NCBI RefSeq assembly: GCF_025354435.1
Contig: NZ_JANXMU010000073.1
Span: 124,001 to 188,000 of the forward strand
Source: Rhodoferax sp.
GTDB lineage: Bacteria > Pseudomonadota > Gammaproteobacteria > Burkholderiales > Burkholderiaceae_C
Direction: 5' to 3'
DNA length: 64,000 nucleotides
Shown: positions 2,449 to 63,402 of the stretch, in pieces
Position numbering within the stretch: the stretch's first letter is position 1
Layout of the letters: every line of letters begins with the position of its first letter
Made by a program: the position numbers and the translations under genes
Notes under the pieces: model-generated
What the model saw: only the letters and a program-made list of their open reading frames with translations
Told to the model about the DNA's origin: nothing
The model's database searches: none

Positions 2449-4047
2449 ATGACACTCGCATCTCCACCCCTGGCTACCTTGCGTTCTGCATTGATGGCGC
2501 AATTGACCGCCCCCGCCCGCTTTGATGTGGTGGTGATTGGTGGTGGGGCCACTGGCCTGGGCGTGGCGCTGGATGCCGCTGCGCGGGGCTTCAGCGTGGC
2601 TCTGGTCGAGTCACACGACTTTGCCAAAGGCACCTCGTCGCGGGCGACCAAGCTGGTGCACGGCGGCGTACGCTATCTGGCCCAGGGCAACATCGCCTTG
2701 GTGCGCGAGGCGCTGCACGAGCGCACCACGCTGCTGCACAACGCGCCGCATCTGGCCCAGCCGCTGGCCTTTGTGATGCCCTCGTACAAGTTACTGGATA
2801 CGCCGTTTTACGGCATTGGTTTGAAGATGTACGATGCCTTGGCAGGCAAGGCTGGCTTGGGCCCCACAGAATTTTTAGGGCGCAATAAAACCCTGCAGTA
2901 CTTGCCTACCGTCCAGGCCCAGGGCCTCAAGGGCGGCGTAAAGTACTGGGATGGTCAATTTGACGATGCGCGGTTGGCCCTGGTGCTGGCCCGCACGGCC
3001 GCCGCCCACGGTGCGGTGGTGGTCAATTACTGCGCCGCCACCGGTTTGCTGCATGAAGACGGCAAAGTTGCCGGTGTGCACTGCGAAGACCGTGAAACCG
3101 GTGCCAAGATCACACTGCGGGCGGGCTGCGTAGTGAACGCCACCGGTGTCTGGGTCGATGCATTCCGCCAGCAAGACGGTGAAGCTACGGGCCGGGTGGC
3201 CAAACCCATGGTGGCCCCCAGCCAGGGCGTACACATCGTGGTGGACCGTGAATTTCTACCCGGCGACCACGCCATGCTGGTACCCAAAACGGCCGATGGC
3301 CGTGTGCTGTTCGCCGTGCCTTGGCTAGGCAAAGTCATTCTGGGCACCACCGACACGCCGCGCGAAGACCTGGCTCGCGAGCCGCGGCCTTTCAAGGAAG
3401 AAGTGGAGTTCATCCTGAGTGAGTCCGCCCGCTATCTCAGCCGCGCCCCTACGCGTGCCGATGTGAAAAGCGTCTGGGTCGGCCTGCGTCCGCTGGTCAA
3501 GCCACAGGATGACGATGGCGGTAACACCAAAGGTATCAGCCGCGAGCACACGGTATTGGTCAGTAAAAGCGGCCTCGTCACCGTGACCGGCGGCAAGTGG
3601 ACTACCTACCGCGCCATGGCCGAGGACGTGCTGGACAAATGTTTTGACGCGCATCTGCTGCAACCGCGCAAGCCTGGCACAACTTCCACTTTGCGCTTGG
3701 TGGGGGCCGGTGTGGCCGTAGATGCCCAGCGCCCCAAAATCAGTGACGCGCCCGGTCTGCATGCCTACGGCACAGAGCAGCCCATCGTCCAGACCTTACC
3801 CGGTGGAGATCGTTGGCTGGGCGGTGGGGTCACCGAGGGCATGGTACGTTTTGCGGCGCGTTTTGAATACGCCCGTACCGTGGAAGATGTGCTGGCTCGG
3901 CGCAGTCGCTTGCTCTTCCTCGACGCACGGTTGGCCGCCACGTTGGCCCCGGCGGTAGCCGCAATCCTGCAAGAAGAAACCGGTGTCGATCCTCAAACCG
4001 ATGCATTTGTTGCTTTGGCGCAACTCTATGTGACCCTGCCCGCGTGA
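2449..4047 (+). CDS. glpD: Aerobic glycerol-3-phosphate dehydrogenase
   Basis: A 532-residue FAD enzyme that oxidises sn-glycerol 3-phosphate to dihydroxyacetone phosphate at the cytoplasmic membrane and passes electrons to quinone. The dinucleotide-binding motif DVVVIGGGATGLG lies at about residues 26-38, followed by the family sequence GTSSRATKLVHGGVRYL and, later, the TGGKWTTYR motif typical of GlpD. Length fits the family. The ATG at 2449 has only a weak ribosome binding site; ATG 2494 (Met-Ala-Gln-Leu) is a possible alternative that keeps the FAD motif. It follows the glpV terminator and is translationally coupled to the downstream phosphatase gene. Confidence 0.96.
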   Translation: MTLASPPLATLRSALMAQLTAPARFDVVVIGGGATGLGVALDAAARGFSVALVESHDFAKGTSSRATKLVHGGVRYLAQGNIALVREALHERTTLLHNAPHLAQPLAFVMPSYKLLDTPFYGIGLKMYDALAGKAGLGPTEFLGRNKTLQYLPTVQAQGLKGGVKYWDGQFDDARLALVLARTAAAHGAVVVNYCAATGLLHEDGKVAGVHCEDRETGAKITLRAGCVVNATGVWVDAFRQQDGEATGRVAKPMVAPSQGVHIVVDREFLPGDHAMLVPKTADGRVLFAVPWLGKVILGTTDTPREDLAREPRPFKEEVEFILSESARYLSRAPTRADVKSVWVGLRPLVKPQDDDGGNTKGISREHTVLVSKSGLVTVTGGKWTTYRAMAEDVLDKCFDAHLLQPRKPGTTSTLRLVGAGVAVDAQRPKISDAPGLHAYGTEQPIVQTLPGGDRWLGGGVTEGMVRFAARFEYARTVEDVLARRSRLLFLDARLAATLAPAVAAILQEETGVDPQTDAFVALAQLYVTLPA

Positions 4048-4862
4048 AGCCCCTGGCGCAATGGCCGCTGGCGGCGCGGCGTGGCCTGGTGGGCGTACTG
4101 ACCGACATCGACGACACCCTGACGACCGATGGAGCCATCACCGCCGATGCACTGCAGGCCTTGGCGGACCTGAAGGCAGCGGGTTTAGTCGTGATTGCCA
4201 TCACCGGCCGCCCTGTGGCTTGGAGCGAGCCCTTTGCGTGTACCTGGCCGGTCGATGCGATCGTGGCAGAAAATGGTGCTGTTGCGCTTCAAAATTTAAG
4301 CCAAATCGGCCTCCAGCATAGGTGCTGTCTGCACGAACAGCTATCAAAACTGTATATCCAGGATGCCGCTACGCGTCGCACCAACTTTGCACGCATGCAG
4401 CAAGTTGCGCAGCGGGTACTGGCTGAAGTGCCCGGGGCCCAGTTGTCAGAGGACTCCCTAGGGCGTGAAACCGACATCGCCATCGACCACAGCGAATTTA
4501 CCCAACTGCCATCCGACAAGATCGCCCAGGTCGTGGCAATTTTGCAATCTGAGGGCATGCACGCCACGATCAGCTCCATCCATATCAATGGCTGGTATGG
4601 CGGGCATGACAAATGGGTGGGGGCATGCTGGATCGTCAAGACCTTGCTGGGGCGCGACATGGCCGCAGAGCGCGATCTCTGGGCCTACGTGGGCGACTCC
4701 ACCAACGACCAACGTATGTTTGACGCCTTGCCAAACAGTATCGGTGTCGCCAATGTGCGCAGATTTGAATCGCAGATGGCTTGCAAACCCCGTTACATCA
4801 CCTTCAAGGAGCGGGGTGCGGGCTTTGCAGAGGTGGCTTTTGCCGTGTTGGCCGCGCGCTGA
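4044..4862 (+). CDS. HAD-superfamily phosphatase, subfamily IIB, coupled to glpD
   Basis: A 272-residue HAD hydrolase. Motif I is DIDDT at residues 21-25 (nucleophile Asp21, acid Asp23), motif II the Thr of AITGRP near residue 54, and motif IV GDSTND at 217-222. The AENGAV segment near 75-80 is typical of IIB members that act on sugar or polyol phosphates. The GTG start at 4044 overlaps the glpD stop (GTGA), so the two are co-translated. A role in removing phosphate from glycerol-derived intermediates is inference only. Residues about 83-103 are encoded by a copy of the palindromic repeat that elsewhere sits between genes, so this region is probably a recent insertion in the cap domain. Confidence 0.85.
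   Translation: MKPLAQWPLAARRGLVGVLTDIDDTLTTDGAITADALQALADLKAAGLVVIAITGRPVAWSEPFACTWPVDAIVAENGAVALQNLSQIGLQHRCCLHEQLSKLYIQDAATRRTNFARMQQVAQRVLAEVPGAQLSEDSLGRETDIAIDHSEFTQLPSDKIAQVVAILQSEGMHATISSIHINGWYGGHDKWVGACWIVKTLLGRDMAAERDLWAYVGDSTNDQRMFDALPNSIGVANVRRFESQMACKPRYITFKERGAGFAEVAFAVLAAR
4284..4353 (-). repeat. Palindromic repeat A, copy inside the HAD phosphatase gene
   Basis: Read on the minus strand this stretch matches the repeat A family: a tagctg-type left part, a central imperfect palindrome, then GGAGGCC, a Tttggcttaaattt-type tail. The tail is nearly identical to the copy at 37439-37504. It is the only copy seen inside a gene. The surrounding reading frame stays open because the position that is TAG in the hutD copy is CAG here. 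Confidence 0.8.
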
Positions 4863-19715: not shown

Positions 19716-19718
19716 GTG

Positions 19719-19786
19719 ATTGCTATTAAATTAATAGCTACTAGCGTATGTGAAATATGCGCTAGAGGCCTAAAAAGCTTATAAAA
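19719..19786 (+). repeat. Palindromic repeat A between M20 hydrolase and coaX
   Basis: TTGCTATTAAAT, TAGCTACTAGCGTA, a short centre, TATGCGCTAGAGGCC and an AAAAGCTTA tail. CTAGCGTA and TATGCGCTAG form the inverted arms. The unit fills the gap between two convergent genes and its tail contains the coaX stop codon. Confidence 0.85.
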
Positions 19787-23665: not shown

Positions 23666-23751
23666 GGGCGATCCGTGGGCAGTAATAGCCCAAAGTGTAG
23701 AGGAACCCAAGCGCCCCGTGGCGTGGAATCTACGTAGCCGATTTAGTGAAA

Positions 23752-23818
23752 ATTGCTATATAAATAATAGCTTTAGGCGCATATTGCATATGCGCTAGAG
23801 GTACTATTTATACTTATT
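23752..23818 (+). repeat. Palindromic repeat A upstream of the CorA-like gene, at the tetR end
   Basis: A variant copy: TTGCTATATAAATAATAGCTTTAG, then GCGCATAT-TGC-ATATGCGC, a perfect eight-base inverted repeat, then TAGAGG and an AT-rich tail that includes the stop codon of the TetR gene at 23814-23816. Confidence 0.75.
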
Positions 23819-24428
23819 TAGTATCAGGGCTATAGCCGCCCATGAAAACCCGTACCGCCCGGGCCACCTTGCCTTGCACCTGTTCGGGTGTCAGTTCCGG
23901 GTTTTCGCGGTAGAAATAGCGGTGGTCGATCTCGGAGTGCATCAGCGCGCCAAAGTGCCGGGCGGCCACCAACGGGTCGGCCTGGCGCAGCAGGCCCCGG
24001 TCCATCACCGACTGCATGTACGCCGCCATGGCCTGCTCGCCCTGTTGCTGGCCGGCTTCATAAAACAAACGCCCCACCTCGGAGTGTCCGGCTTCGGCCA
24101 GCACCAGGCGGTACGAAGACATGGCCGTGGCCGAGGCCAGAAACACCAGCAGGCGCTCGCCAAAGCGTTGCAGCAAGCTGGGCAAATCGTCGTCCTTGGA
24201 GGTGGTTAACTCCTCCAGCGCCGGGTCGATGTGCTCGGCCCCGAACTGGCGGGCCAGCGTCAGGAAGATGGCTTCCTTGGACGGGAAGTAGCCGTACAGC
24301 GTGGCTTTGGAGCCGCCAAGGCGGGCCGCAATGGCCGCCATGGAGGCCCGTTCGTAGCCCATTTCCAAAAACACCTCGGAGGCGATTTTCAGGATCGCAT
24401 CGCGCTTGGCATCGGTGCGGACTTTCAT
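23814..24428 (-). CDS. TetR/AcrR-family repressor of the adjacent RND pump
   Basis: A 204-residue regulator with a helix-turn-helix at about residues 10-55 (AILKIASEVFLEMGYERASM, then GGSKATLYGYFPSKEAIF) and a C-terminal ligand domain of the AcrR_C type. It is divergent from the efflux genes, the classic layout for a local repressor that is released by a pump substrate. A 17-base palindrome at the start region of the pump transcript is a likely operator. ATG 24428 is used. Confidence 0.93.
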   Translation of the reverse strand: MKVRTDAKRDAILKIASEVFLEMGYERASMAAIAARLGGSKATLYGYFPSKEAIFLTLARQFGAEHIDPALEELTTSKDDDLPSLLQRFGERLLVFLASATAMSSYRLVLAEAGHSEVGRLFYEAGQQQGEQAMAAYMQSVMDRGLLRQADPLVAARHFGALMHSEIDHRYFYRENPELTPEQVQGKVARAVRVFMGGYSPDTK

Positions 24429-28930: not shown

Positions 28931-30376
28931 ATGCCATTTTTTAAACTGACCAGCCTCGCGCTCGCCGTCGTTTTGGCGGGCTGCAGCAGCCTGGCACCCA
29001 CCTACGAACGCCCGGCGGCCCCCGTGCCTGCCGTGTTTCCCACCGCCTCGGCCAGCGGCCAGGCCGCCGCCGAGATTGATTGGCGCGACTTCTTCGCCGA
29101 CGCCAAGCTGCGCAGCCTGATCGATCTGGCCCTGGCGAACAACCGCGACCTGCGCGTGGCCGTGCTGAACATCGCCCAGGCCCGCGCCCAGTACCGGGTG
29201 CAAGATGCGGCCACCTGGCCCACGCTGAACGCCACCGGCAGTGGCAGCGCCAGCCGCACCCCGGCCAGCCTGTCGGGCACCGGCCAGGCCGTGGTGGGCC
29301 ACCAATACAGCGCCAGCATCGGCACCAGTGCCTACGAGCTGGACCTGTTTGGCCGCGTGCGCAGCCTCAACGCCCAGGCCCTGGAGTCGTACCTGGCCAC
29401 CGCCGAGGCCCGCCGCAGCACGCAAATCAGCCTGGTGGCCGAAGTGGCCAGCGCCTACCTCAGCTGGTCGGCCGACCTGGCCCGCCTGGCCCTGGCCCGC
29501 CAAACCCTGCAAAGCCAGAGCGACACCTATGGCCTCACCCAGCGCCGGTTCGAGCTGGGCACCGACTCGGCCCTGCCCCTGCGCCAGCAGCAAACCAGTG
29601 TCGAATCCGCCCGCGTCGATGTGGCCAGCTACACCGCCCAGGTGGCGCTGGACCAGAACGCCCTGGCCCTGCTGCTGGGCACCGCCGTGCCTGCGGATCT
29701 GGCCCCCACCGGCCTAGCCCAGCGCGTCAGCGCGCTGCCCGATTTGCCCGCAGGTTTGCCGTCCGACCTGCTGCAGCGCCGCCCCGACATCTTGCAGGCC
29801 GAGCACAGCCTGCAAGCCGCCAGCTACAACATCGGTGCGGCCCGCGCCGCCTTCTACCCGCGCATCAGCCTCACCGCGTCGGCGGGTACGAGCAGCAACG
29901 ACCTGGCCGGCTTGTTTAAAGCCGGTGCCGGGGCCTGGAGCTTTGTGCCGCAAATCACCCTGCTGCTGTTCGATGGAGGTGCGAATCAGGCCAACCTGGA
30001 CATCGCCACCGTCACCCGCGACATTAACGTGGCCCAGTACGAAAAAACCATCCAGACCGCCTTCCGCGAAGTCGCCGACGCACTGGCCCAGCGCAGCAAC
30101 CTGGGCGACCAACTCAGCGCCCAGCAAGCCTTGGTGGATGCCACGGCGGACAGCTTCAAACTGTCCGACGCCCGCTACCAGCGCGGCGTAGACAGCTATC
30201 TCGACGTGATGGTGACCCAGCGCAGCCTGTACACCGCCCAGCAGGGTTTGATCGGCACCCAACTGTCCCGCCTGGCCAACGAGGTCACGCTGTACAAGGT
30301 ATTGGGCGGCGGCTGGACCGGGGAGGCCGTGGTGGGGAAGTGGGGTCTGCTATTTAAATGGGAGCTACTAGCGTAG
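28931..30376 (+). CDS. Outer-membrane efflux channel lipoprotein (OprM/NodT family)
   Basis: A 481-residue outer-membrane factor with lipobox LAGC (Cys18) and two OEP repeats. Family segments include [29 protein letters not shown]-like [12 protein letters not shown] and [15 protein letters not shown]. It completes the tripartite pump with the adaptor and RND genes. ATG 28931 begins one base after the pump stop. The last nine or so codons (LLFKWELLA) and the TAG stop are encoded by a palindromic repeat, so the C-terminus has been replaced or extended by that element. Confidence 0.94.
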
Positions 30377-30412
30377 GCGAAATATGCGCTAGCGGCCTAT
30401 TTTGCTTAAAAA
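30348..30412 (+). repeat. Palindromic repeat A at the oprM-like gene end
   Basis: GCTATTTAAATGGGAGCTACTAGCGTAG, centre, AATATGCGCTAGCGGCC and TATTTTGCTTAAAA. It overlaps the 3' end of the efflux channel gene, supplying its final codons and stop, and nearly reaches the convergent mtfA stop at 30419. Confidence 0.85.
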
Positions 30413-30418
30413 TCTATT

Positions 30419-32098: not shown

Positions 32099-32186
32099 GC
32101 GCCGCCCCTTCGGGCCGGTAGTCGAAGGGCATGGCTTCCTGCATGCAACTGCTTGGGGTCACTTCCCGTGGGCTGGCGCGGATGTG
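32099..32186 (-). pseudogene. Decayed copy of the hutG 3' region
   Basis: This stretch resembles 33990-34080, the C-terminal coding part of hutG. The core at 32117-32138 is identical to 34006-34027 and encodes MQEAMPFDY on the minus strand; flanks still align with scattered changes and small indels. It has no start and is not translated as part of a gene. It lies on the far side of hipA from the intact hutG, so hipBA is bracketed by the two copies. Confidence 0.75.
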
Positions 32187-33831: not shown

Positions 33832-33852
33832 TTGATGGTTGCGGAGCTGTGA

Positions 33853-33920
33853 TTGCTCTATTTTTAGGAGCGACCTGCGCAAGTGTTATGTGCGCCAGGG
33901 CCCTATTTCATAAAAATTTT
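33853..33920 (+). repeat. Palindromic repeat A between hutG and hipB
   Basis: A diverged copy: GATTGCTCTATTTTTAGGAGC, GACCTGCGC, centre, ATGTGCGCCAGGGCCCTATTTCATAAAAATTTT. The tail runs into the hutG stop codon at 33920-33922. Confidence 0.65.
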
Positions 33921-34723
33921 TAATTCCCATCCGTCTGCCCAAACCCCAATGCCACCTCCACCATCCGCCGCAAATGCGGCTGGATGCCCGCCGCCACCTC
34001 GGGCAGGTAGTCGAAGGGCATGGCTTCTTGCATGTAGCTGCTTTGGGTCATTTCCAGCTGGATGGCGTGGATGTTGTTTGCGGGCTGGCCGTAGTGGCGG
34101 GTGATGTAGCCGCCCTGGAAACGGCCATTGAGCACGGCGGTGTAGCCGGGGGCGCTCTGCGCGACGGCCAGTAACGCGGCGGACATCGCGGGGTCACAGC
34201 TTGTGCCGTTGCCGCTACCCAAATTCAAATCCGGCAGCTTGCCGTCGAAGAAGCGCGGCACCACCGAGCGGATGGAGTGCGCGTCCCACAAAACGGCTTT
34301 GCCGTGGACCGCCTGGATACGGGCCAGCTCGGCATGCAGTTGCTGGTGGTAGGGCTGCCACAGGGTGTCGCGGCGCAGGGCGATCTCGGCGGTGGTGGGC
34401 ACGTCGGCGGGGTCCTGGTACAGGGGCTGGTTGTCGAAATCGTCCACCGGGCACAGGCCGGTGACGCTCTGGCCGGGGTACAGGCTGGCCCCCGACGGGT
34501 CGCGGTTCAGGTCGATCACGTAGCGGGAATGGGTCGCTATCAGCACCGATGCGCCCAGCTCCTGGGCGAAGCTGTACAGGCGCTCCAGGTGCCAGTCGGT
34601 GTCGTGCACCTGCCGGGCGGTGGGGGTCAGGCGGGCGGCCAGCGCGGGCGGCAGGTAGGTGCCGACGTGGGGCATGGAGATCAGCAGTGGCTGGGTGCCT
34701 GGGATGAATGTGAAGGCTTGCAT
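33920..34723 (-). CDS. hutG: N-formylglutamate deformylase
   Basis: A 267-residue enzyme that hydrolyses N-formyl-L-glutamate to formate and glutamate, the last step of the five-step histidine pathway. Family segments include SMPHVGTYLP, HDTDWHLERLY, ATHSRYVIDLNRDPSG and LWDAHSIRSVVPRFFDGKLP, with His and Asp residues that would hold a metal. It is the last gene of the hut operon, two bases after hutF. Part of its 3' end is duplicated at 32099-32186. Confidence 0.95.
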   Translation of the reverse strand: MQAFTFIPGTQPLLISMPHVGTYLPPALAARLTPTARQVHDTDWHLERLYSFAQELGASVLIATHSRYVIDLNRDPSGASLYPGQSVTGLCPVDDFDNQPLYQDPADVPTTAEIALRRDTLWQPYHQQLHAELARIQAVHGKAVLWDAHSIRSVVPRFFDGKLPDLNLGSGNGTSCDPAMSAALLAVAQSAPGYTAVLNGRFQGGYITRHYGQPANNIHAIQLEMTQSSYMQEAMPFDYLPEVAAGIQPHLRRMVEVALGFGQTDGN

Positions 34724-37429: not shown

Positions 37430-37438
37430 GGTGTGTTT

Positions 37439-37504
37439 GCTATTAAATAAAGAGCTGCTTGCGCAGGTGTAATATGCGCTAGAGGCTTATTTGGCTTAAA
37501 TTTA
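37439..37504 (+). repeat. Palindromic repeat A between hutI and hutD
   Basis: TGCTATTAAATAAAGAGCTGCTTGCGCAG, centre, AATATGCGCTAGAGGC and TTATTTGGCTTAAATTT. On the minus strand the tail encodes the last residues of HutD (NLSQISL) and its TAG stop at 37479-37481. Confidence 0.85.
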
Positions 37505-38039
37505 CCGCGACCAACATGGCATCTTCCGTTTGCGGTGCGGCGTGTAATTGCGCCGGTGCATCCCACCACAGGCCGTGGCCGGGGGCGCAGGAAAGACTGC
37601 CTAACTGCCAGATGCCACGCACCGCCAGCAGCAGGCCGCTGGTGGTGGAAAACTCTTCGGTGGCGTGCACCACCCGCACCTCGGCCTGTACCCGCCCGCG
37701 CCGAGTCATCAGGTTGAAGTCGGTCGATGCACCGCCCAGCAGTTCACAGCCCAGCGCCACGTCGCCCGAGAACACGAACGGCACGCTAGGCGTGTCCAGC
37801 CGGTGGTCTATGGCACCACCAAACAGCCGCACACCCGCACCGTCCAGCAACATGATCACCCGGTCCACGCCGGGAAAGGCCGAGAACGGACCGGCTGCGG
37901 CGATGGTGGCGATGCTCACGCGCCAGTCGAAGCTGTCCATGCCTGCACCGGGCGGCTGGCAGACGACCTCAATGGTGGTGCCGCCGCCGTTCTTCCACGG
38001 CGTGGCGGGCAAGGTGGCGGTGTTGAAGGTGTGGATCAT
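37479..38039 (-). CDS. hutD: HutD-family protein
   Basis: A 186-residue bicupin-like protein of the HutD family, beginning [20 protein letters not shown] with the characteristic WKNGGGTT motif and [21 protein letters not shown]. HutD is common in hut operons and is thought to limit pathway flux, perhaps by binding an intermediate such as formylated glutamate, but it is not an assigned enzyme. ATG 38039 overlaps the hutH stop. Its C-terminal residues come from a palindromic repeat. Confidence 0.93.
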
Positions 38040-39538
38040 GGGAATGGCGAAAAAGGCGTTCGTAAGAGGGCGGCGGCCTGCGCAATGTCGGGGGCCAGGA
38101 AGCGGTCGGCATCGAAAGATGGCACGTGCCGGCGCAGCAGTTGCCACGCCTGGCCCGTGCCTTCGCCGAATTTTTGTGCTTTCAAAAACTCCAGCGCCTG
38201 GGCGGCCAGCAGGTATTCGATGGCCAGGATGTGCGTGAGGTTCTCTAGCGACTTGTGCAGGTCTAGTGCGGCGGTGGTGCCCAGGCTCAGGTGGTCTTCC
38301 TGCCCACCGGAGGTGACGAAGTTGTCCACCACCACCGGCTGGGCCAGGCGGCGGTTTTCGCCCACCAGCGAGGCGGCGGTGTACTGCGCAATCATCAGGC
38401 CCGAATTCACGCCCGGCTCGGCCACCAGAAACGCGGGCAGGCCGCTCAGCACCGGGTTGACCAGCCGGTCCAGCCGCCGCTCGGCCACACCGCCGAGTTC
38501 GGCCGCAGCGATGCGCAGCAGATCGCAGGCCATGGCCACCGATTCGCCGTGCGGATTCGCTTGCGACATGACGCGGTAGGCATCTGGCGTGCCCAGCAGC
38601 AGCGGGTTGTCGGTGGCCGAGTTGAGTTCGGTTTCGATCTGCCGGGCCGCGTGGGCGATCTGGTCGCGGCAGGCCCCGTGGATTTGCGGCATGGAGCGCA
38701 GGCTCAACGCATCCTGCGTGCGCAGGCCCAGGCTACTGGCAATCACCTCGCTGCCCGCCAGCAGGCTGCGCAAACGCTGGCCCACCCGCTGCATGCCGGG
38801 GTGGGGTTTGAGGGCCAGGATGTCGGCATCGAAGGCGGCAATTTGCCCTTTCAAGGCTTCAAAACTCATGGCCCCGGTCACGTCGGCCCAGTCGACCAGG
38901 CGCTCCACGTCGGCCAGGGTCAGCGCGGCCAGGCCGGTCATGCAAGGGGTGCCGTTGACCAGGCACAGACCGTCTTTGGCGCCCAGCACCAGGGGCTGCA
39001 GGCCGTTGGCGGCCAGGGCCTCGGCGGCGGGCAGGGTGCGGCCCTGCCAGCGCACCTCGCCCACGCCCAGCAGCGCCACGCTGATGTGGGCCATATGGGT
39101 GAGGTAGCCCACCGAGCCCTGCGAGGGCACACAGGGGGTGATGTGTAAATTCAGCAGCGTCTGCAGCCCTTCGACCACCTGGGGCTGCAGGCCCGAATAG
39201 CCCTGGCAGAAGTTGGCCAGCGCCGCGACCAGGATGGCGCGGGTCTGCGCCTCAGACAGCAGCGGGCCAACCCCGCAGGCGTGGCTGAGCAAGGTATTTT
39301 TGGATAACTGCGCCAGTTGCTCACCGTGCAGCAGCACCTGGCTCAAGGCCCCCAGCCCGGTGCTGATGCCATAGGCCCGCTCGCCGCTGGCCACGATGCG
39401 CTGCACGATGGCCTGGGCGTTGGCGATGCGGGCCCAGGCGGCTTCCGATATCTCCAGCTGCGCACCGTCACGGGCCACGGCCACCAGGTCGCGGAAACCC
39501 AGGGGCTGGTCACCCAGGGTGATGCTCGTCACGGTCAT
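38036..39538 (-). CDS. hutH: Histidine ammonia-lyase family protein lacking the MIO tripeptide
   Basis: A 500-residue HAL-family protein placed where HutH, which converts histidine to urocanate and ammonia, belongs. Conserved parts are present: YGISTGLG (Tyr56), VNGTP (Asn195), [23 protein letters not shown], and GQEDHLSLG with a later Glu. The Ala-Ser-Gly that self-cyclises to the MIO electrophile is missing: residues 141-150 read [10 protein letters not shown] where classical enzymes read GSVG-ASG-DLAPLA. The gap is exactly three residues and the frame is clean. It may use another chemistry, be a specialised clade, or be inactive. The start overlaps the ABC ATPase stop. Confidence 0.88.
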
Positions 39539-42667: not shown

Positions 42668-42708
42668 GGTTTCACTTTCAGAGGGTTGAGGGACAGGCGA
42701 AAGATTTG

Positions 42709-42770
42709 AATAAAAAGCGCCACTGGCGCAATATGTATAAGCGTAAGCAGCTATTAATACCGTAGCAATT
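42709..42770 (-). repeat. Palindromic repeat A upstream of the amino acid binding protein
   Basis: In reverse orientation: the minus strand reads TTGCTACGGTATTAATAGCTGCTTACGC, centre, TATTGCGCCAGTGGCG and TTTTTATTC. It lies between hutU and the binding-protein gene, next to repeat B copy 2. Confidence 0.7.
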
Positions 42771-42775
42771 TATGT

Positions 42776-46247: not shown

Positions 46248-47000
46248 ATGCCCGCACCACGTAAGTTAGATTTACCCGATGGGGGCAGCGATGCCTCGGA
46301 AGACGCAACGCTGCCGGCTTTTGAGCGCATCAAACGCCATGTGCTGGCGCAGATCGCATCGGGGGTCTGGCGCGAAGGGGATGCCATCCCGGCCGAAGAG
46401 AGTTTGGCCAAAACCTTTGGCGTGTCGCGCATGACGGTGAACCGCGCCCTGCGCGAGTTGAGTGCCGAGCAGGTGCTGCGCCGGGTGCAGGGGTCGGGCA
46501 CCTTTGTGGCTCCACGCAAATACCAAGCCATGCTGCTGCAACTCCACAACATTGCCGACGAGGTGGTGGGGCGCGGCCATGTGCACCGCAGCGAACTGCA
46601 CCGGCTGGAGCGCTGCAAGGCCGACGAGGTGTTGGCGGCGCAGTTTGGCGTGCCGTTGCAGAGTACGTTGTTCCATTCGGTGGTGGTGCATTTTGAAAAC
46701 GACCAGGCCATCCAGGTCGAAGACCGGTATGTGAACCCCATCGTCGCCCCCGATTATTTAAGCTACGACTTCCAGGGCCACACGCCCAACGAGTACTTGA
46801 TGCGGGTGGCACCCCTGCAAGCCGTGCGCTTCACCATCGAGGCCAATATGCCCACCGCCGCCTTGTGCGGTCTGCTGGACATGGCCGCCACCGACCCGTG
46901 TCTGGTACTCAAGCGCCAGACCCAGTCGCAAGGCCATGTTGCGTCTTGCGCCACGCTGTGGCACCCGGCATCGCGCTACCAGTTTGCGGGGGCCTTTTGA
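46248..47000 (+). CDS. hutC: Histidine utilisation repressor HutC
   Basis: A 250-residue GntR-family regulator. The winged helix-turn-helix (about residues 20-88: ERIKRHVLAQIASGVWREGD, then SRMTVNRALRELSAEQVLRR) is followed by a UTRA ligand domain that binds urocanate in HutC proteins. ATG 46248 (MPAPRKLDLPDGG) is used; ATG 46206 is in frame but overlaps the divergent promoter. It is divergent from the hut operon and converges with a second HutC-like gene. Confidence 0.92.
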   Translation: MPAPRKLDLPDGGSDASEDATLPAFERIKRHVLAQIASGVWREGDAIPAEESLAKTFGVSRMTVNRALRELSAEQVLRRVQGSGTFVAPRKYQAMLLQLHNIADEVVGRGHVHRSELHRLERCKADEVLAAQFGVPLQSTLFHSVVVHFENDQAIQVEDRYVNPIVAPDYLSYDFQGHTPNEYLMRVAPLQAVRFTIEANMPTAALCGLLDMAATDPCLVLKRQTQSQGHVASCATLWHPASRYQFAGAF

Positions 47001-47036: not shown

Positions 47037-47804
47037 TTAGCTGGTCACCGCATTCCCATCGGTACGGAAACGGCTGCCCAGGCGGTAGCGCGCGCCGGGG
47101 TGCAGGCAGCGCACCAGGGTGATGGGCACGTCGCGCATCCAGGTGCGGCGGGTCAGCAGCAGGCAGGGCTGGTGGGCATCCATTTGCAGCAGAGCGGCCT
47201 GGCCCGAGGTGGGCAGCACGGCATCCACCACGTGCTCCATCTGGTCGAACAACACGGTGCGCACCAGGTAATCGGACGGCTGCTCGGTCTGGAAATCCTG
47301 GCTGCCAAAGTCGGGGGCCATGCGCGGGTTGACGAAGCGGTCTTCGAGTTGCATGGCCACGCCGTCTTCCAGATGCACGCAGACGGTATGGAACACCGAC
47401 TCGCCGGTGTGCAGGCCTAAAGCGGAGGCCACTTCCAGCGTGGCCGAAATGCGCTCGTTGGTGACCATCTGGCACTGGTAGTCGTGGCCGCGGCGGCGGA
47501 TGTCGTCGGCCAGGCGGGCGATCTGCAGCAGGTTGGCCTGGGGTTTGTCGTCGGCCACAAAGCTGCCCACACCGGCCACCCGGCGGATGCGGCCCTGCTC
47601 TTGCAGCTCCCGCAGCGCGCGGTTGACGGTCATGCGCGACATACCGAACTGCAGTACCAGGTCGTTCTCGGACGGCAGGCGGTCGCCGGGGGTCCAGGTG
47701 CCGTCCTGGATCTTGCCAGCCACAAAGTCTTTGATGTGCTGGTAGCGCACCATGGGCAGCGTGGGGGCAGGGGAGACCAGCGAAGAGGTGCGTTTTGCGG
47801 GCAT
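47037..47804 (-). CDS. Second HutC-like GntR/UTRA regulator
   Basis: A 255-residue paralogue of HutC with a winged helix (YQHIKDFVAGKIQDGTWTPG, MSRMTVNRALRELQEQGRIR) and UTRA domain. It is the last gene of an ABC operon, 24 bases after the ATPase gene. A palindrome AACCTGT-GTAG-ACAGGTT upstream of that operon shares the core of the hutC operator, so this protein probably controls its own transporter operon. Its effector may be urocanate or a related compound. Confidence 0.88.
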   Translation of the reverse strand: MPAKRTSSLVSPAPTLPMVRYQHIKDFVAGKIQDGTWTPGDRLPSENDLVLQFGMSRMTVNRALRELQEQGRIRRVAGVGSFVADDKPQANLLQIARLADDIRRRGHDYQCQMVTNERISATLEVASALGLHTGESVFHTVCVHLEDGVAMQLEDRFVNPRMAPDFGSQDFQTEQPSDYLVRTVLFDQMEHVVDAVLPTSGQAALLQMDAHQPCLLLTRRTWMRDVPITLVRCLHPGARYRLGSRFRTDGNAVTS

Positions 47805-50444: not shown

Positions 50445-50489
50445 CACCACTAGCAACATCGGGGCCAAGTGGTTAGAGGGTGTTTGCTC

Positions 50490-50557
50490 TGCTTTCAGGA
50501 GCTACTAGCGTAGGTGGAGTATGCGCTAGAGGCCTATTTTTTATATATTTAAGCCAA
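50490..50557 (+). repeat. Palindromic repeat A at the FAD-oxidoreductase gene end
   Basis: CTCTGCTTTCAGGAGCTACTAGCGTAGG, centre, GTATGCGCTAGAGGCC, TATTTTTTATATATTTAAGCC. The tail includes the TAA stop of the minus-strand flavoprotein at 50549-50551. The T-run after the hairpin resembles a terminator. Confidence 0.85.
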
Positions 50558-52171: not shown

Positions 52172-52676
52172 GGGGGGTAGCCTGGTGGCTTGTAGTTATC
52201 AAGCAGGAGCCTTCGATTTTAAAGCTGCGTCGGGCCCCTGACCCGCCACGCCGACGGCTTGTCCGTGGTGGTGCGGCGGGCCAAACCGGGTGTTGCGCAT
52301 CCAGGGGGCTTCATCGGACTTTTGTGCGGTCTTGGCTTGCGTGGCAAACATCCCCCAGATGGCGAGATGAATCGGGGTGGGTGTCGTCTGCCGCGCTAGA
52401 GGCAGAACGCTATGATTTTTAGATAAATATTTGATAGCTACTGGCGTATATTTAAATTGCGCTAGTGCCCTATTTGGCATCTAAAAAATGACCAAAAAAT
52501 GTAAATTGCATGGAGGGGGAAATAAGCGCCTGGGACACGCCGCGTCCCGGGGTTTTGGCGACACCAGCCCGCCGCAGATGCGGGTGGATTAACGGTGTAG
52601 GGAGGGCATCCCGCTAAAATCGGAGGTGTTTACGCCCCCTTCCTGCGGCCCGCCGCCCCTCTCTGAAGATTTCCCC
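52172..52676. other. 505-base intergenic region between the flavoprotein and the polyene cluster
   Basis: Divergent spacer. It contains a repeat A copy, a hairpin GGGAC/GTCCC (52533-52549) followed by GGGGTTTT that could be a weak terminator, and a -10-like TAAAAT at 52613-52618 before the ACP gene without a good -35. A 50-codon minus-strand frame at 52199-52351 (MFATQAKTAQKSDEAPW) has no convincing ribosome binding site; I do not call it a gene. Confidence 0.5.
52410..52488 (+). repeat. Palindromic repeat A upstream of the polyene cluster
   Basis: TTAGATAAATATTTGATAGCTACTGGCGTATA, centre, AATTGCGCTAGTGCCC, TATTTGGCATCTAAA. Plus-orientation copy with a shorter palindrome. Confidence 0.75.
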
Positions 52677-63266: not shown

Positions 63267-63300
63267 TCGCGTAATTCCACACTGCGGCTCCAAAAGTCTT

Positions 63301-63367
63301 TTTGCTATTATATTAGTAGCTAATAGTGTATGTGGAATATGCGCTGGAGGCCTAAAAGATGCATAAA
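63301..63367 (+). repeat. Palindromic repeat A at the end of the polyene cluster
   Basis: TTTGCTATTATATTAGTAGCTAATAGTGTA, centre, ATATGCGCTGGAGGCC, TAAAAGATGC. It lies in the convergent gap between the reductase and the glycosyltransferase. Confidence 0.85.
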
Positions 63368-63402
63368 TCAAGCAGCGACCGGCGTTGCCCCTTGCACGGG
63401 CC

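Follow-up and report, generated by a model that had tools for sequence, protein, structure and literature searches.

Residues ~84-103 of a HAD-IIB phosphatase encoded in the window, the 64,000-nucleotide stretch of DNA analyzed here, derive from a palindromic repeat. The gene segment that encodes them is probably a long-established copy, lying in frame, of an A+T-rich, hairpin-forming element of ~70 bp that spread in part of the Comamonadaceae. The phosphatase gene, the copies of the element in the window, and the ORF that ends inside one of them are the following.

4044..4862, + strand: HAD-IIB phosphatase gene, 272 aa (Pfam Hydrolase_3, 3e-11; TIGR01484 HAD-SF-IIB, 1e-16)
4290..4353, - strand (gene strand +): in-frame copy of the palindromic element in the phosphatase gene (HMM made without this copy; outgroup orthologues without the insert)
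19716..19786, + strand: element copy (covariance model, 83.9 bits)
23749..23819, + strand: element copy (covariance model, 68 bits)
30343..30413, + strand: element copy (covariance model, 75.5 bits)
33849..33919, + strand: element copy (covariance model, 72.4 bits)
37433..37503, + strand: intergenic element copy whose reverse strand gives the last codons and TAG of the ORF called hutD (covariance model, 85 bits; translation)
37479..38147, - strand: ORF ending NLSQISL-TAG inside the element, putatively hutD as first annotated (translation)
42702..42772, - strand: element copy (covariance model, 64.4 bits)
50480..50550, + strand: element copy (covariance model, 84.7 bits)
52416..52486, + strand: element copy (covariance model, 66.4 bits)
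63298..63368, + strand: element copy of the CTGG (CAG) type (covariance model, 74.1 bits; sequence)

An element copy within the phosphatase reading frame

The phosphatase gene begins with a GTG codon and overlaps the stop of a glpD-like ORF upstream. Its product scores above the TIGR01484 cutoff, which places it in the HAD-IIB group, and the catalytic motifs D21-I-D23, T54-G-R, K190, and G217-D-S-x-N-D are invariant among 39 orthologues. The reading frame remains open across the element copy, which is translated as QNLSQIGLQHRCCLHEQLSKLY. A nucleotide HMM made from seven of the window's intergenic copies, with the phosphatase copy left out, was searched against both strands of the window and matched positions 4351-4295 on the minus strand at E=2.1e-5. 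A second HMM, built from 33 non-HAD copies of the same genome, was run on 856 kb and matched 4290-4353 with E=3e-6; it returned zero matches at E<=0.01 when the reversed genome served as decoy. The initial annotation, made from the sequence of the window, had proposed a repeat copy translated in the phosphatase frame at 4284-4353; the two independent HMM matches and the clean decoy bear this out, and the interval was correct to within a few bases. The copy scored 21.3 bits (E=0.014) with the covariance model R1 and folds poorly (z -0.97).

The AlphaFold model of the phosphatase has a mean pLDDT of 93. In this model the element-encoded insert is the loop joining strands 80-84 and 100-104 of a hairpin, where the pLDDT drops to ~54 with a minimum below 50 at residues 93-96, and residues ~84-103 are thereby predicted to form a disordered beta-hairpin tip. 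As a single, weak solved relative passes E<0.001, the loop is placed by prediction. The earlier assignment of these residues to the cap region was roughly right, with the model refining it to a hairpin loop that, as in HAD-IIB proteins generally, would lie at the entrance of the C2B cap. Loops of 51 and 44 residues, proline-rich or alanine/lysine-rich, occupy the site in two other genomes (G030 and G027, respectively), showing that it tolerates long unrelated inserts.

The element has a conserved unit of about 67-71 bp and is 36% G+C in a 63% G+C genome. In its layout, a first hairpin (GCTATT..AATAGC) is followed by a variable central one and by an end that reads AGGCC..GGCTT. Nine copies are present in the window besides the one in the phosphatase gene. 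With a sensitive profile, 161 copies (E<=1e-3) were detected in 856 kb. At this density of 188 per Mb, a whole genome would hold roughly 880. A strict pattern gave 428 matches in the window genome, about 90 per Mb. Five relatives within the genus, among them an assembly that is 71% complete, had 234-380 matches, and the remaining two had 9 and 0. Counts were 0-175 across other Comamonadaceae genera, and 24 genomes from outside the family had none. With the reversed pattern as control, two genomes gave one match each and all others gave 0. The element has no Rfam family. An Rfam search of the window found a tRNA alone and matched the element to no known RNA family.

Age and distribution of the insert

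The initial annotation had suggested comparing orthologous phosphatases for presence or absence of the insert. A long loop occurs at exactly the insert site in 60 of 114 orthologues, many of which read S-Q-I-G-L-Q...Q-L-S-K, and the insert has the same site, frame, and orientation across many Comamonadaceae genera. Neither other families nor basal Comamonadaceae have it; in them 12 and 10-12 residues, respectively, separate the anchors and no element is present. A search of the 114 coding sequences (93 kb) with the element profile gave 34 matches, all within the insert and all on one strand; orthologues with weak element matches were classed by loop length. The conversion of an intergenic palindromic repeat into protein sequence, as first proposed, is supported both by this distribution and by the placement of 34 of 34 orthologue matches in the insert.

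The same residues in distant genera had been named in advance as a sign that the resemblance was due to chance. Distant genera do carry inserts of this kind, yet these match the element at the DNA level, so chance does not explain the shared residues. A chance likeness between a variable loop and the repeat would fit the degenerate match (26 bits) and the variable length of the loop in the family, but the E=2e-5 came from a profile that never saw the phosphatase copy, and the HAD copies follow species dialects, as described below. At the DNA level this reading is refuted by the independent HMM, the confinement of all 34 matches to the insert, and the clean reversed-genome decoy, and we regard it as having almost no likelihood.

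From its distribution, the HAD insert is older than the genus. Partial remnants occur in Acidovorax and Polaromonas, and loops such as QRLPGKREQLSK (Acidovorax sp. MR-S7) look like partly deleted element copies. Although about 19-20 residues are element-like, the net gain in length is only ~10, so that either older loop residues were lost at insertion or the borders have become blurred. On a quick tree with low support, the long or short state of the loop requires 21 changes, and starred branches force 6; with such support and so many changes, a single gain is not proven.

The insert tracks the presence of the element elsewhere in the genome. A long HAD loop is carried by 17 of the 19 genomes in which the strict pattern matches and by 2 of the 11 in which it does not, and those two loops give no element match. 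For GluQRS, which also carries an in-frame copy, the insert is present in 14 of 16 genomes with the element vs none of 9 without. The Fisher p values, inflated by shared ancestry, are 2e-4 for HAD (1e-3 with one genome per genus) and 3e-5 for GluQRS (1e-4). Two genomes of the same genus, G001 and G004, which have 0 and 9 strict matches, contain no GluQRS insert. In G001 the HAD insert is missing as well, as is element-like DNA in the CCA-adding enzyme and TruB genes.

The initial annotation went on to attribute the coding copy to loss of the element's stop codon. The example it drew on was read correctly, as the ORF at 37479-38147 on the minus strand does end NLSQISL-TAG within the element copy 37433-37503. 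The proposed route by stop loss is not supported, as the insert predates the genus and many non-coding copies carry no TAG. In the window genome, CTAG at this site is kept in 80 of 131 non-coding copies. The variant CTGG, which reads CAG, occurs in 6 of the 131 and in 6 of 18 in G002, and it also recurs often in the listed sites of G012 and G031. Since ~39% of non-coding copies are without CTAG and CTGG variants exist, a stop-free source copy suffices. Among 25 in-frame coding copies, 19 are read in two other frames, both of which avoid the TAG stop; the frame of the HAD copy is a minor one.

Coding copies in other genes and species dialects

We surveyed the window and five contigs, the contigs being sampled in 20 kb stretches, together 856 kb or 18% of the genome. 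Out of 172 element copies with adequate flanks, 25 lie in frame inside an ORF with both flanks coding-like, although the two or three weakest of these, with E above 1e-3 or in linkers of low complexity, could be false positives. Extrapolated from this 18% sample, roughly 100-130 proteins of the genome are estimated to contain translated copies. Most of the 25 carriers were named by NCBIfam, and the annotations are profile names: GluQRS, an Ada/AlkA-type protein, CCA-adding enzyme, a WaaA-type transferase, HrpA, an HlyD-type protein, MutL, an SDR oxidoreductase, TruB, biotin carboxylase, SelO, a YejF-type ABC ATPase, PurL, MiaA, an LdcA-type protein, DsbB, and an EamA-type protein. Four of these in the window genome are located as follows.

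L171:13592-14656: TruB with in-frame element copy
L155:15644-17002: GluQRS with in-frame element copy
L159:12109-13992: MutL with in-frame element copy
L151:6471-10583: PurL with in-frame element copy

In these four proteins the element copies sit in loops, linkers, or hairpins. The insert region of GluQRS spans 38-47 residues in most element carriers, which belong to several genera (32 in G006), and 17-26 residues in most non-carriers. In the CCA-adding enzyme and TruB, as in the HAD phosphatase, the net gain in length is smaller than the element-like stretch. For 19 coding copies (17 genes by pooled query plus those for the CCA-adding enzyme and TruB), the element occupied the same place wherever the gene was recovered, and in most of these genes it was present in all four species compared (G002, G003, G005, and G007). 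No young polymorphic insertions were found among the 19.

The core of the intergenic consensus differs between species, reading GCGTAGGTGGAATATGCGC in G000, CGCTGATGGAATAAGCGC in G002 and G007, and GCGCAGGTNNTACCTGCGC in G003 and G005. The coding copies share these dialects. The profile of a copy's own dialect group scored best for 71 of 93 coding copies, HAD included. Permuting the labels within genes gave 2.9 (sd 51.6) vs an observed value of 467.8, with 0 of 10,000 permutations as extreme. A leave-one-gene-out test on coding copies alone gave z=7.9, while sixteen flanking-DNA controls ranged between z=-2.9 and z=2.5. The HAD insert follows the dialect in the same way, with GCTGATGGAATAAGCG in the G002 copy and GCTTATGGGATAAGC in the G007 copy. 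As the coding copies change in step with the non-coding ones, the DNA repeat has a share in determining the amino-acid sequence of protein loops.

The dialect effect is confined to the hairpin core, where paralogous copies differ by 0.384 within species vs 0.445 between groups; outside the core both values are 0.366. Orthologous copies, at 0.17-0.24, are nearer to each other than to paralogues (0.39-0.42), so there has been no wholesale replacement of copies. The amino-acid difference is 33.6% in the element vs 13.6% in the flanks (2.5 times higher), and third-position (synonymous) change is equal in both. Conservation of the hairpin itself in coding copies was ruled out, as shuffling arms between genes of one species keeps the pairing; core pairing is fully accounted for by dialect and there is no covariation of its own.

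Each of the five species in the dialect comparison (G000, G002, G003, G005, and G007) has one Y1_Tnp gene, and in each an element match, weak in G000, overlaps the 3' end. The single-copy gene of G000, at contig C59:2869-3198, encodes a Y1/RAYT-like transposase. The gene is diverged in G004 and was not found in G001 and G006, both incomplete assemblies. Because elements are common at gene ends, the match at the 3' end may be due to chance, and the case for this transposase as the mover of the element is only suggestive.

Explanations and relation to known repeat families

In the explanation that we consider probable, the element, most likely a variant without TAG, would have entered the phosphatase hairpin loop once, early in the family. 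It may have been tolerated because this loop is permissive, and in several lineages, most of which do not have the element family, it would later have been trimmed or lost; early gain followed by loss is our reading of the distribution. With less certainty, we infer that a DNA-level process also acting on intergenic copies keeps reshaping the coding copies. Candidates are a species-specific recognition factor and a partial re-copying in which the single-copy Y1 transposase may be involved; the protein would accept the amino-acid changes that result.

A different history, in which the hairpin loop was a hotspot that received elements independently in several genera, draws on the 21 changes of loop state and on insert sequences and lengths that vary between genera. 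Codon position, orientation, and frame are identical throughout, however, even though the frame is a minor one among coding copies, and the partial remnants point to losses. The deep branches are also poorly supported, and we judge repeated insertion to be improbable. The coding copies could also be neutral fossils, old insertions drifting as loop sequence whose dialects reflect the subfamily at insertion and a shared mutational bias. The faster amino-acid change in the insert at equal synonymous rates is consistent with this, as is the greater closeness of orthologous than paralogous copies, which leaves no sign of wholesale replacement. Drift of this kind is nonetheless improbable, given that copies at one site diverge toward the intergenic consensus of each species, that flanking DNA shows no effect in the same test, and that a general mutational bias does not predict a dialect difference in the core alone.

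The dialects and the conserved positions in genes would also suit a recognition sequence resembling the DNA uptake sequences (DUS) of Neisseriaceae, kept in genes by selection or biased transformation. Several DNA-repair and RNA-processing genes are among the carriers, and the examined coding copies are lost in element-free lineages. Against this, the element is ~70 bp with about 430 strict matches per genome, far longer and rarer than a 10-12-mer, and no receptor has been identified. We rate such a functional signal as somewhat unlikely; it is one form of the DNA-level process in the preferred explanation, so the two estimates overlap. Tentatively, and short of an even chance, the element may be a species-specific DNA signal actively maintained within reading frames, dictating loops of those roughly 100-130 proteins. 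If so, it would be recognized by a transposase, an uptake protein, or a chromosome protein, and the loops would not be set by protein function alone.

Among described repeats, the Rickettsia palindromic elements (RPE-1, RPE-4, RPE-6) lie in frame in many likely functional protein genes (PMC3733652). The element resembles them in this respect, with 25 candidates in 856 kb and truB as a carrier in both, but it occurs in Betaproteobacteria, is ~70 bp long, and has coding copies that are old, fixed across species, and dialect-following. It works like an RPE and is not classed as one, the likeness being drawn by description and not by sequence. Intragenic REPs of the GTAG and CGTC superfamilies are 20-40 bp and are likewise found in DNA-repair and RNA-enzyme genes, those for TruB and tRNA synthetases among them; their termini give TAG stops to neighboring genes, and retention at about the same site was noted for recB of two Xanthomonas species only (PMC3733652). 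No Comamonadaceae REP family is listed in the main text of that report (PMC3733652). Termini that supply a TAG stop, copies in repair and RNA-enzyme genes, and a Y1 tyrosine transposase in the genome are shared with REPs, whereas a unit of ~70 bp with several hairpins falls outside their size range. The consensus TTGCTATTAAATTAATAGCTACTAGCGTAGGTGGAATATGCGCTAGAGGCC... has no GTAG or CGTC end tag, the ends of the element being approximate.

The BRE repeat of Comamonadaceae and Bordetella is ~90 bp, 69% G+C in Bordetella, and sometimes tandem, with copies that are mostly intergenic and in some cases within coding sequences (PMC3110155). The element is likewise a mostly intergenic Comamonadaceae repeat found in part in coding sequences, but it is single and far more numerous. 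By its description BRE is set apart, and its base composition (69% vs 36% G+C) rules it out as the identity of the element. DUS occur as 10-12-mers in thousands of copies with species dialects and a demonstrated uptake function, and the dialects reach into genes with amino-acid consequences (PMC3630211). The element is similar as a genome-wide repeat whose dialects are common to copies inside and outside genes and alter amino acids; it differs in being ~70 bp with about 90 strict matches per Mb, neither short nor dense.

In the openly searchable literature we found neither the element nor any coding palindromes reported to follow a species dialect. By these papers the element family appears to be undescribed, and coding copies that track a species dialect may be new. 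In-frame palindromic repeats have so far come mainly from Rickettsia and scattered REP cases; here they occur in an environmental group outside Rickettsia, with translated copies estimated at a hundred or more, which are fixed across species and yet follow the dialect of each. This offers a tractable system for studying how a repeated DNA element continues to shape proteins and what machinery imposes the dialect.

The window contains two further repeats. A 45-nt inverted repeat at 46416-46460 and 47604-47648, 82% complementary, lies in two oppositely oriented ORFs and has the look of a helix-turn-helix in a pair of related regulators. An 86-nt direct repeat at 32100-32185 and 33989-34074, 85% identical, lies in two adjacent ORFs and looks like a duplicated gene segment.
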